A stretch of 41,294 nucleotides of DNA, taken from positions 1-41,294 of the IMG/VR virus record IMGVR_UViG_3300027714_000039; one strand, given 5' to 3'. A model generated the notes under the pieces. It ran no database searches, was not told the DNA's origin, and worked only from the letters and a program-made list of their open reading frames with translations. The DNA comes from a virus. Below are positions 3,162 to 21,985 of the stretch, piece after piece. Made by a program: the position numbers and the translations under genes. How positions within the stretch are numbered: the first letter of the stretch is position 1; every line of letters starts with the position of its first letter.

Positions 3162-4478
3162 ATGGATACAGAAGACTTACTAAAACGATTTGGATTGATG
3201 GTTACAGAACTATCATCTACAACGTCTAATAACAATAAAAAAGATATACTACATAAGTGGGGTAGTGCATACCCCGAATTACTTACTTTGATGGAATATA
3301 TCTATTCAGATTACAAAAAATATTATGTGACTAGTTCTAACTGTAAGAAAAAGAATGAATTATGTCATAAACATTATCTTGGAAGCCTATTTTGCATGCT
3401 AGATAATCTTGATAATAGGGTTTGGACCGGCCATGAGGCAATATCTTATGTAAATGGATTTGTACAAAATTATCCAGAATATGAAGATTTAATATGGAAG
3501 ATACTAGATAGAGATATGAAATGCAGAGTATCTACTTCTTTAATCAATAAGGTATTTCCTAATACTATTCCAGTATTTAAGGTAGCTCTTGCAGACACCT
3601 ATAAACCAGGTATGGCAGATTTTGAAGAAGATATGTGGCTATGTAGTAGAAAACTTGATGGCGTCAGATGTCTTGCTATGATAGATGAAGATGGAGACAT
3701 CAAATTTTATTCTAGGGGTGGTAACGAATTTCTAACACTTGACAATGTTAAAAAAGACCTTCAAAAATTACAACTTAGTGGAGTAGTACTTGACGGAGAA
3801 TTATGTATTGTCGATGAAGATGGTAATGAAGACTTCCAATCAGTTATGAAGGAAATAAATAGAAAAAACCATACAATAGAAAATCCGTTACTACAAGTAT
3901 TTGATTTTCTTACACTTGATGAATTTAACAATCAAGAAGGAGTAACAGAATTAGGAATGAGATTAACATTTTTAAGAGGAGCACTTGATAGAACCTCATA
4001 TGAAGGCGAAGATATCAAACACTTAAAGGTATTAGAACAACTACTTATCACAAATTCAGATTCATTTCAAGTATTATTTGATCAGGCCTCAGCAAATGGT
4101 TGGGAAGGCCTAATGTTAAGAAAAAATGTATCTTATGTTGGTAAAAGAAGTAAAGATTTGTTAAAGGTTAAAAAATTCTATGATGAAGAATATATAGTTA
4201 AAGGTATAGAATTCGGTGATATGCGGTACATTAAAGAAGGAGTAGAAGTAGAAGAAGAGATGGTGAGTAATATAACAATAGAACATAAAGGAAATACTGT
4301 TGGTGTTGGTTCTGGCTTCTCAATGGATGAAAGAAAAAAATACTTCAAAAATCCTGAATTATTAATGGGAAAAACAGTGACAATACAATATTTTGAAGAA
4401 AGTAAGAATAAAGATGGAGAATATAGTTTAAGGTTTCCAGTATTAAAGCATGTTTACGAAAATGAAAGAAATTGCTAA
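3162..4478 (+). CDS. ATP-dependent DNA ligase
   Basis: The nucleotidyltransferase motifs are visible in order: motif I KLDGVR with the adenylated lysine at residue 164, motif III LDGELC (about 210-215), motif IIIa FDFLTLDE (about 247-254), motif IV EGLMLRK (315-321) and motif V LLKVKKF (333-339). An N-terminal helical region of about 150 residues and a C-terminal OB-fold region complete a 438-residue enzyme, near the size of T4 gp30. It seals nicks in phage DNA during replication and repair. It directly follows the nucleotidase in the operon from the 2606 module. The tRNA-like RNA follows. Confidence 0.93.
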   Translation: MDTEDLLKRFGLMVTELSSTTSNNNKKDILHKWGSAYPELLTLMEYIYSDYKKYYVTSSNCKKKNELCHKHYLGSLFCMLDNLDNRVWTGHEAISYVNGFVQNYPEYEDLIWKILDRDMKCRVSTSLINKVFPNTIPVFKVALADTYKPGMADFEEDMWLCSRKLDGVRCLAMIDEDGDIKFYSRGGNEFLTLDNVKKDLQKLQLSGVVLDGELCIVDEDGNEDFQSVMKEINRKNHTIENPLLQVFDFLTLDEFNNQEGVTELGMRLTFLRGALDRTSYEGEDIKHLKVLEQLLITNSDSFQVLFDQASANGWEGLMLRKNVSYVGKRSKDLLKVKKFYDEEYIVKGIEFGDMRYIKEGVEVEEEMVSNITIEHKGNTVGVGSGFSMDERKKYFKNPELLMGKTVTIQYFEESKNKDGEYSLRFPVLKHVYENERNC

Positions 4479-4494
4479 TAAAATGATATTTATA

Positions 4495-11973: not shown

Positions 11974-13200
11974 ATGAGCAAAAAATTCACCACTGACAAA
12001 AAGATCTATTTGAAACCTATATCGCCTACTAAGCTAGTAGATGGTGCAGGAAACGAATACAAATGCCCGAAAGACACAACGTCTAGAGAGCGAGTAGCAC
12101 GTGCCTTTAATGAAGGTACTCGTGCAGTAAAAATTATGGATAAGGAAGGTACTCTAAGTATGGGTACAGTTGAGATATCGTATTTTGAAACCGGACCCAA
12201 TGCCTATAAAGGTGATGATTGGGTAGCACTTAACGGTCTTAAAATAAATAAAGCACCTAAAGGTGTAACGCTCCCTGCTGAACAAGTGGAGCTAATGCAG
12301 TTTATAGAGACATCAGCTGATCTTAAGCCAAAACAATTATTTCTTAATGATACTAAATGGAGATTCCTAATTAGATCAGCTATGAGAGGTAAGAATATCA
12401 TGATGACTGGTCCAGCTGGTTGCGGTAAGACTATGGCTGCTAAGTCACTTACTAATACATTAGAGCGACCTAATTTCTATTTTAATTTGGGTGCAACCCA
12501 AGACCCTAGAGCTACCCTTATAGGTAATACACACTTTAATAAGGAAGATGGAACTTTCTTCTCGGAGGCTTTATTTGTCAAAGCTATACAAACTCCCAAT
12601 GCAATTATACTATTAGATGAAATATCTAGAGCTCACCCTGAAGCACATAACATATTGATGACAGTGTTGGATGAGGGTCAAAGGTATTTACGTTTAGATG
12701 AAGCAGACGGTTCGCCAACGATCAAAGTAGCGGAAGGAGTAACCTTTGTAGCGACTGCTAATATAGGTAATGAATATACAGCAACAAGAGTTATGGATAG
12801 AGCACTATTAGACAGGTTTATTATAGTGGAAATGGACGTATTAGGTATGGAAGAGGAAAGCGAGTTATTAGCAATGCTATTTCCACTAGTTAATCAGAAG
12901 CAAATAGACTCCGTAGCGGCTATCGTCGCTGATACACGTAAAGAACTAAACAGTGAGATGCCTAGATTAAGTACACATGTTAGTACTCGTAGTAGTGTAG
13001 AGATGGTAAGTCTAATATATGATGGCTTTAGTCTTGCTGAGGCTAGTGAGGTCTGTATATACCCACTATTCGATAATGCTGGTGGTATAGACAGTGAAAG
13101 AACCTTTATTAAGCAAATAGTACAAAAATATATCCCACAAGAAAATACAGACGAGGACTTATTTAATACAGAAGACGTAGAAGATGCAGATGACCAATAG
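11974..13200 (+). CDS. MoxR/CobS-type AAA+ ATPase
   Basis: Residues 146-153 (GPAGCGKT) are the Walker A motif, 211-220 (IILLDEISRA) Walker B, about 258-265 (FVATANIG) sensor 1, and RALLDRF near 276-282 the arginine-finger box. The order and the short inserts match the MoxR/CbbQ/CobS group of AAA+ proteins. An N-terminal domain of about 130 residues is extra. MoxR ATPases work as hexameric remodelling factors with a von Willebrand A protein, and this window encodes one at 16098. CobS-like genes are known in T4-like cyanophages. Transcription is from module copy 4. Confidence 0.88.
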   Translation: MSKKFTTDKKIYLKPISPTKLVDGAGNEYKCPKDTTSRERVARAFNEGTRAVKIMDKEGTLSMGTVEISYFETGPNAYKGDDWVALNGLKINKAPKGVTLPAEQVELMQFIETSADLKPKQLFLNDTKWRFLIRSAMRGKNIMMTGPAGCGKTMAAKSLTNTLERPNFYFNLGATQDPRATLIGNTHFNKEDGTFFSEALFVKAIQTPNAIILLDEISRAHPEAHNILMTVLDEGQRYLRLDEADGSPTIKVAEGVTFVATANIGNEYTATRVMDRALLDRFIIVEMDVLGMEEESELLAMLFPLVNQKQIDSVAAIVADTRKELNSEMPRLSTHVSTRSSVEMVSLIYDGFSLAEASEVCIYPLFDNAGGIDSERTFIKQIVQKYIPQENTDEDLFNTEDVEDADDQ

Positions 13201-15494: not shown

Positions 15495-15566
15495 GGCCCG
15501 GTCGTCTAATGGTTAGGACGCATGGTTTTCATCCATGTAATCGGAGTTCGATTCTCCGTCGGGCTA
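15495..15566 (+). tRNA. tRNA-Glu (UUC)
   Basis: The cloverleaf is complete. The acceptor GGCCCGG pairs with TCGGGCT, with G-U at both ends and A73. The D-arm starts TCGTCTAATGGTTAGGAC, the anticodon stem is CATGG/CCATG with loop TTTTCAT and anticodon TTC at 15528-15530, and the T-arm is CGGAG-TTCGATT-CTCCG. CCA is not encoded. The gene lies between a GC-rich scar and promoter module copy 5. Phage tRNAs usually supplement codons favoured by the phage, and GAA is very frequent here. Confidence 0.9.
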
Positions 15567-15577
15567 CTAATATATAA

Positions 15578-20843: not shown

Positions 20844-21296
20844 ATGACAACAACAACACTCGTAAACACGCCTTTCGGCACAAGATTATTCCCAACTGAT
20901 TTATTATTTAAGAATTTTTTCGATCAAGCTTCGGCTTTTGAGACTAATGTAGACAAGAAGATTAACCATCCTGTCGATATTATCTATACGGAAGAAGCCT
21001 TAATATTTGAAATAGCAGCAGTTGGATTAAATAAGAAAGACATCGATCTTTCTACAGAGGATGGAACAACGTTAAAGGTTTCATACACTAAACCAACCAT
21101 CGAATCTAATGATTCAGACCAAGACGCAGGAGAATATATCCATAAGGGTATTGCAAAACGGTCTTTTGATTTAGGATGGAAGATTAGTCCTAAGTTTGAT
21201 TTAACAAAAATTACGGCATCCATGGAAAACGGCCTTCTAAGATTAGAAGTACCTGTTTCTCCAGATAGTACGCCAAAAACAATTACAATTAAATAG
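20844..21296 (+). CDS. Small heat-shock protein, Hsp20/alpha-crystallin
   Basis: After a variable N-terminus with Phe-rich helix (LLFKNFFDQ), the alpha-crystallin domain runs from about residue 42 (NHPVDIIYTEEALIFEIAAVGLNKKDI) to about 138, with the diagnostic ENGLLRLEVPV near the end. The C-terminal tail has an ITIK sequence resembling the I-x-I motif that joins oligomers. Length (150) is normal. Hsp20 proteins are ATP-independent holdases, and T4-like marine phages often carry one, probably to help virion assembly. It has its own promoter and a strong AAGGAG site. Confidence 0.92.
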   Translation: MTTTTLVNTPFGTRLFPTDLLFKNFFDQASAFETNVDKKINHPVDIIYTEEALIFEIAAVGLNKKDIDLSTEDGTTLKVSYTKPTIESNDSDQDAGEYIHKGIAKRSFDLGWKISPKFDLTKITASMENGLLRLEVPVSPDSTPKTITIK

Positions 21297-21339: not shown

Positions 21340-21585
21340 ATGAAAATATTTTACAATGGAAATAATGCTTATCAAGTTGTTCGCACAATAAATGTTAGTA
21401 CGTGTGATCCGAAAAGATATGGCATTAATAGAACAGACGAACAAGCTTACAATATGATCCTTCAGCTTTGGAGAGATGAACACCACTGTGATCATGTTCT
21501 ACGGCGAGAAAACGATTTTATGTTGTGTAGAACTATTAAAGATGTTCAAATTATAAATAATAATGATTATAATGATATTTATTAA
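21340..21585 (+). CDS. Hypothetical protein, 81 aa
   Basis: I do not recognise it. It is a small soluble protein with three Cys and several His (DEHHCDHVLRREN). It lies between Hsp20 and the tmRNA and may be co-transcribed with either. Its stop codon is two bases before the tmRNA acceptor piece as drawn. Confidence 0.6.
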   Translation: MKIFYNGNNAYQVVRTINVSTCDPKRYGINRTDEQAYNMILQLWRDEHHCDHVLRRENDFMLCRTIKDVQIINNNDYNDIY

Positions 21586-21587
21586 TG

Positions 21588-21648
21588 ACCGTTAGTACTT
21601 TTATTAGCTGCTCAAATGGACGAGGGTTCGACTCCCTCCATCTCCACT
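21588..21648 (+). ncRNA. ssrA: Permuted tmRNA: acceptor piece (3' part of tRNA domain)
   Basis: The T-arm GAGGG-TTCGACT-CCCTC (21622-21638) is followed by CATCTCC (21639-21645) and A73 (21646), the typical end of a bacterial tmRNA (GGAC before the T-arm is also typical). The matching acceptor 5' strand is not upstream but at 21716-21722. CTCAA (21611-21615) can pair with TTGAG after that strand to form helix P2. CCA is not encoded. The left boundary is set only by the preceding stop codon and is uncertain. Confidence 0.85.
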
Positions 21649-21715
21649 CAACGGACTATATTCATTTAGATATAATATGGTCCTCGGTGATAAACTATAT
21701 TCAATTGAATATAAT
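21649..21715 (+). other. Intervening segment of the permuted tmRNA
   Basis: This linker joins the acceptor 3' end to the coding-piece 5' end and would be cut out. It contains two hairpins. GGACTATATT pairs with AATATGGTCC around an 11-base loop, and TATATTCAA-TTGAATATA is a perfect 18-base palindrome. Such structure next to both mature ends fits recognition by tRNA-processing enzymes. Confidence 0.75.
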
Positions 21716-21985
21716 GGGGATGACTTGGATATTGACATTGAGATAAGGATTTAAGGAAGGTCACGCATAACAGGCGAACATGTTGAAATGGCAATGGCGG
21801 CTTAATAAAGTCCCCAGACCCAACGGCAAAAAGAAGCCACGTCGTTTAAGCTTCGGTGGATAGTGGAAAAAATAAAAACGAATGAGGGTATTAGGAACTC
21901 TTACCCTCTAGTTTTTGCGTCTGAGACGTCGCGGATAGCTAAAAGAGTTCAGCTGGGTGGGTTGGTGGATTTAACTAAAATGATT
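21716..21985 (+). ncRNA. ssrA: Permuted tmRNA: coding piece with tag
   Basis: GGGGATG (21716-21722) pairs with CATCTCC at 21639-21645 over all seven positions and puts G3 opposite U70, the identity pair for alanyl-tRNA synthetase. TTGGATATTGACA follows, comparable to the TGGATTCGAC of the tmRNA D-region. The tag frame starts near 21773. After it are GAGGGTA/TACCCTC (21884-21890 with 21902-21908), with AAAAAC/GTTTTT outside, and AGCT-rich hairpins that may form pseudoknots. PK1 between P2 and the tag seems short or missing. The right end is approximate. Confidence 0.85.
21773..21808 (+). other. tmRNA tag reading frame GEHVEMAMAA
   Basis: Reading from GGC at 21773 gives GEHVEMAMAA followed by TAA TAA. 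The ten-residue length, the hydrophobic AMAA end (a ClpXP-type degron, compare ALAA) and the double stop are typical of tmRNA tags. Tags beginning GE are known from Bacteroidota. The resume codon is inferred from this pattern. ACA just before it is the alternative. Confidence 0.8.

Follow-up and report, generated by a model that had tools for sequence, protein, structure and literature searches.

Bacteroidota ssrA tags begin with GE and end in ALAA or AMAA, and Bacteroidota tmRNA is known as a one-piece molecule. Circularly permuted genes, which give rise to two-piece tmRNAs, are known from alphaproteobacteria, some betaproteobacteria and cyanobacteria, with Bacteroidota not among these clades (PMC11915505, PMC3968760). 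The two-piece molecules have fewer pseudoknots, and in E. coli PK1 can be replaced by a hairpin (PMC3968760); the alpha, beta and cyanobacterial forms have been merged into one Rfam family, RF04321 (tmRNA_permuted; PMC11915505). In E. coli tmRNA, U85 and A86 set the tag frame and are read by SmpB (PMC2481249, PMC8363625), and a hairpin (U88-A100) holds the resume codon in its loop, perhaps protecting it (PMC8363625). Among phages, a two-piece tmRNA has been described for Melnitz and for pelagimyophages (PMC9004378); that of Melnitz clusters with genes of alphaproteobacteria (SAR11) and comes with a glutamine riboswitch. The gene analysed here is a previously unknown variant of this already known phage two-piece tmRNA. 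Like the Melnitz gene, it is permuted, belongs to a marine T4-like phage and would use the host translation machinery; it differs in that its carriers resemble the phages immuto and RM378 and its tags form the family GE[QH]VE[ML]AMAA, and an Rfam search found no riboswitch in the window, by which we mean the whole 41,294-nt stretch of viral DNA that was analysed.

ARAGORN reported a permuted tmRNA ('tmRNA*') at 21554-21896 of the window, with a tag of exactly GEHVEMAMAA, and Rfam RF04321 matched at 21587-21805 with 56.4 bits (cut-off 47). The true 5′ end of the tmRNA lies at about 21587, just past the end of the upstream open reading frame (ORF) at 21585, and the ARAGORN start is too far upstream. 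The order of the parts, acceptor piece, intervening sequence and coding piece (Table 1), is that of permuted two-piece genes, and the tRNA-like domain contains the G3-U70 alanine identity pair, read directly as 21718 with 21643; the pair is present in 59/59 aligned sequences, a count partly fixed by the extraction pattern. CCA is encoded only in part. The intervening sequence, whose length differs among relatives, is presumably cut out as the precursor matures into its two parts. In one relative (L062), a tRNA-Ala (TGC) gene (3674-3748, minus strand) lies within the intervening sequence of the phage permuted tmRNA (3480-3844, minus strand); such an arrangement was reported as unique to one nominally archaeal metagenome-assembled genome (MAG) sequence (PMC11915505).

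Table 1 Features of the tmRNA locus in the window
Feature	Position	Strand	Details
Hsp20-type small heat-shock protein gene	20844-21296	+	Neighbour; Pfam PF00011, 2.4e-10
81-aa ORF, putative protein	21340-21585	+	Directly upstream of the tmRNA; kept in alleles without tmRNA
GATATTTAT motif	21574-21582	+	Putative -10 element of a phage promoter driving the tmRNA
tmRNA acceptor piece (3′ half of tRNA-like domain)	21587-21647	+	P2 3′ strand, T arm, acceptor 3′ strand, discriminator A
Intervening sequence	21648-21715	+	Separates the two pieces of the permuted gene
tmRNA coding piece	21716-21870	+	5′ tRNA-like strand, P2 5′ strand, tag frame, H5, PK2; 3′ end inferred
Possible second stem	21764-21776	+	CGC (21764-21766) with GCG (21774-21776); would make a small pseudoknot
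Resume-codon hairpin	21768-21785	+	21768-21772 (TAACA) with 21781-21785 (TGTTG), loop GGCGAACA; RNAalifold de novo, 59 rows
Tag reading frame	21773-21808	+	GGC GAA CAT GTT GAA ATG GCA ATG GCG GCT TAA TAA; GEHVEMAMAA and two stops
PK2-like pseudoknot	21822-21854	+	AACG..CGTT and GAAGC..GCTTC; from the alignment, second stem by eye
Separate structured RNA element	21884-21957	+	Three hairpins; loops 1 and 3 complementary (kissing loops)

The consensus fold of 59 two-piece sequences comprised the acceptor stem, T arm, H2, H5 and part of PK2 and contained many two-sided changes, with compensatory changes in acceptor pair 5, the T arm, H2 (GGTC/GACC, GATC/GATC, GTTC/GAAC and GACTC/GAGTC) and H5. With the same gene and the same or a related tag in many contigs, and with its helices compensated, the tmRNA gene is far beyond chance. 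By its sequence, the GEHVEMAMAA gene is a complete split-type (circularly permuted, two-piece) tmRNA. It shares gene order and tRNA-like domain with the RF04321 tmRNAs and is unlike them upstream of the tag: in the window the resume codon follows the end of H2 after only 10 nt, too short a stretch for an upstream PK1, and none was found; pairing instead sits over the start of the tag. The missing PK1 is a structural difference, not a defining feature of the permuted two-piece class.

The original prediction, that this phage writes its own degradation tag, GEHVEMAMAA, agrees with the translation, the two stops and the identical tag given by ARAGORN; with ARAGORN, RF04321 and the relatives in agreement, the tag is confirmed as genuine and phage-encoded. 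A pyrimidine [T/C] at -5 and an A at -4 of the GGC codon were present in 59/59 rows, at the positions of U85 and A86 in E. coli, and the tag frame ends in H5 with a stop, as in permuted two-piece genes. This -5/-4 context, taken with the conservation of frame and stop, identifies GGC as the resume codon to the extent that sequence can, and no other resume codon or frame came up. In the 3′ half of the tag, third positions change synonymously, with Ala codons 7, 9 and 10 varying. The -AMAA end and the VE core were built into our search patterns and their conservation is therefore not evidence; the third-position counts and the -1 and -5 positions were left free.

Comparison of the relatives revealed a hairpin of five pairs in which the resume codon is looped out (consensus [UC]AACW-GGCGAACA-WGUUG). 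The base at -1 and the third base of codon 3 were T-A in 44 sequences, A-T in 14 and A-A in one (L096), so that 58/59 pair, as against at most 46 in shuffles. In a tree from which these columns were left out, six changes were needed to account for the A-T state, at least three of them forced by well-supported branches. Because CAT encodes His and CAA encodes Gln, the alternation of H and Q at residue 3 follows the RNA, tracking the paired base at -1 in 58/59 rows, and a change from H to Q need not alter the degron. Third positions of codons 1, 4 and 5 (GGC, GTT and GAA) were fixed in 62/62 distinct sequences, though the pattern allowed change, which points to RNA constraint. The hairpin thus probably constrains the first five tag codons, with changes such as H to Q mostly RNA-driven, and the earlier reading of the central HVEM as a changed degron is not borne out. 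Most closing pairs are invariant, so the covariation rests mainly on one pair, whose two bases are separated by 8 nt and could be inherited jointly by recombination; an independent-pair sign test yielded 3-4 comparisons, too few to be used.

The second stem, which would turn the hairpin into a small pseudoknot, is more weakly supported than the hairpin itself. CGC or CGT stands opposite GCG in 59/62 distinct sequences, and the stem is incompatible in one. Two sequences with a changed second codon (L141 and L211) have TGC opposite GCA; they are sister rows in the tree and may reflect a single event, and the same pair recurs on a different backbone (L384). The E. coli hairpin, which likewise loops out the resume codon, is known from cryo-EM density and mutant data, whereas the pairing in the window family comes from comparative sequence evidence over five pairs. 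Since RNA pairing sets part of their sequence, the tag peptides collected in tmRNA databases are not readable as protein signals alone. In six other phage tmRNAs (L235, L263, L291, L314, L126 and L264), the tags have long stems that join an upstream TAACT to AGTTA inside the tag and are possibly independent resume-codon hairpins; in a search across other phage tmRNA families, long stems were in excess for only a few tags, with no general rule.

A degenerate tag pattern retrieved 56 IMG/VR contigs, and the family numbers about 60 distinct relatives, almost all of them on phage contigs of IMG/VR. A scan for the acceptor and D-arm signature, made without reference to the tag, revealed many more permuted tmRNAs with varied tags in phage contigs, among which the window family stands apart by its tags GEQVEMAMAA, GEHVEMAMAA and GEQVELAMAA, with the rarer variants GAQ, GTQ, GKQVEY, GEQVEY, GES and GET. 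One mosaic tmRNA (L384) combines a GTQVEMAMAA tag with a window-type intervening sequence. The locus DNA had no match among isolate phages, and no mention of the tag strings was found in the literature. Among species genomes of bacteria and archaea, 84,980 in all, the tag pattern occurred in one contig, CALBOT010000027.1 of a Nitrosopelagicus MAG (L106), which is phage-like and carries a permuted tmRNA, the sole one above the RF04321 cut-off among 300 genomes of that phylum. Because that genome has no SmpB and the contig encodes a CobS/MoxR-like AAA protein (resembling window 11974-13200 by eye), misbinning of a phage contig is the most likely explanation; some puzzling archaeal tmRNAs may likewise be phage contigs misbinned into archaeal MAGs. 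The family represents a tmRNA lineage that lives in phages and, in this form, does not seem to come from any bacterium sampled. RF00023 scored above cut-off twice in the related 484-kb phage LR756508; these matches were set aside, ARAGORN returning the tag GRRKPLSW for one and nothing for the other.

The gp23 major capsid proteins of the carriers were closest to those of Flavobacterium phage immuto, Microcystis phage Mel-JY01 and Rhodothermus phage RM378, far above other T4-like phages, and the window baseplate protein showed the same pattern for immuto and Mel-JY01. These gp23 affinities make a Bacteroidota host likely for the window phage; the host on record for Mel-JY01 is a cyanobacterium. 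Neither immuto nor Mel-JY01, the nearest isolates examined, had a tmRNA above cut-off. The tag had been taken to point to Bacteroidota, and the resemblance of the carriers to Bacteroidota phages agrees with that host. GE as a lineage marker was not supported as proposed, as relatives start with GA, GK or GT, the tag occurs in no species genome except the presumably misbinned contig and the permuted form is not known from Bacteroidota; the GE start is a weak host signal. The window tag shares with Bacteroidota ssrA tags the GE start and the A-hydrophobic-A-A end and differs in the central residues, and its permuted gene is not the one-piece gene of a Bacteroidota-type host (Bacteroides ihuae matched RF00023 and not RF04321). 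With Bacteroidota outside the known permuted-tmRNA clades, the gene form of this phage lineage is at odds with its probable hosts. Moreover, because the resume-codon hairpin dictates part of its sequence, the tag says less about host and protease choice than had been assumed. Taken as a whole, the idea of a host-lineage marker and altered degron thus has partial support only. The original prediction was silent on the permuted gene, the large phage tag family and the hairpin overlapping the tag; the permuted form in Bacteroidota-type phages, the tag-shaping hairpin and a ClpP linkage in relatives were unexpected.

We suggest that the feature is probably a functional phage-encoded two-piece tmRNA that works as follows. 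Host tRNA-processing enzymes would cut the transcript into an acceptor piece and a coding piece that stay joined by pairing. The two-piece molecule, with its G3-U70 pair, would be charged with alanine and bound by host SmpB (50 carrier records contained no SmpB gene), and would then rescue stalled ribosomes during infection, appending (A)GEHVEMAMAA. The hydrophobic -AMAA end, which resembles the LAA-type signal bound by ClpX (PMC3968760), would direct the product to a Clp-type protease, namely host ClpXP for the window phage; in relatives that encode ClpP, the phage enzyme perhaps also degrades the tagged product.

Among 52 carrier contigs, 23 encode a ClpP-family protein; in 22 the gene shares the strand of the tmRNA and lies 2.3-6.6 kb downstream of it. 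In one relative, the protein aligned with solved ClpP structures over residues 41-208 with the catalytic Ser, His and Asp visible. This linkage offers a testable tag-and-degrade hypothesis and could mean that the tag is re-routed, being read by phage ClpP with host ClpX or a phage unfoldase for selective degradation, an extension of the rescue mechanism rather than an exclusive alternative to it. We regard such re-routing as rather unlikely: ClpP is absent from the window over the 19 kb downstream of the tmRNA and from 29 other carriers, most of them with more than 7 kb of downstream sequence, and conserved gene order could account for the linkage without shared function. The NCBIfam scores lie below the curated ClpP cut-offs, and a role in head maturation is possible. 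Among tmRNA-bearing control phages outside the family, 5/10 had a ClpP-family match (two of them weak), at least two far from the tmRNA. With the window and 29 other contigs lacking ClpP, the link is a lead, not a rule. Only tentatively, then, do we envisage a phage clade with a rescue-degradation module in which a permuted tmRNA, whose resume-codon pseudoknot would replace PK1 and dictate the first half of the tag, is often combined with a phage ClpP as the protease for tagged proteins.

The lack of an SmpB gene in carriers would also fit a decoy, an RNA whose main effect would be competition against host tmRNA for SmpB or ribosomes, its tag being incidental. Phage DS6A carries just a tmRNA-like domain, and tmRNA is inhibited by a molecule resembling it (PMC4131195, PMC11915505). 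The tag frame, resume-codon context, H5 and stops are, however, conserved over about 60 distinct sequences, none of which a decoy needs, and we consider this explanation improbable next to ribosome rescue by a functional tmRNA.

In 47/59 relatives, in several gene contexts, TATTTAT precedes the acceptor piece with constant spacing, compared with 2.4% of background stretches, which suggests that it and the longer GATATTTAT represent a phage promoter. The window contains six copies of GATATTTAT (at 4485, 18650, 21574, 27833, 32273 and 35170), all on the plus strand and mostly intergenic, where 2.0 were expected. It also carries a tRNA-Glu (TTC) gene at 15495-15567 with CCA not encoded.

In three contigs (L379, L380 and L387) an ORF resembling the upstream one and the RNA element from downstream are present and the tmRNA is missing, and these tmRNA-less alleles at the same locus indicate an optional, dispensable cassette. 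Such optionality, and the frequent use of tmRNA genes as integration sites (PMC11915505), might suggest a decaying host gene acquired by the phage, a highly improbable origin given that all domains are intact, that compensatory change and covariation disfavour decay and that no bacterial source with a GEHVEMAMAA-family tag exists among the 84,980 species.

The three-hairpin element downstream of the functional tmRNA that we propose is also found in L048-L051, L086, L102, L103, L116, L153 and L388. Rfam at a permissive threshold gave only chance-level matches to it and assigned no family. Its loops 1 and 3 covary, the pairs being GAACTCTT/AAGAGTTC, TAATTCTT/AAGAATTA, AGCTCT/AGAGCT and GAATCCT/AGGGTTC.
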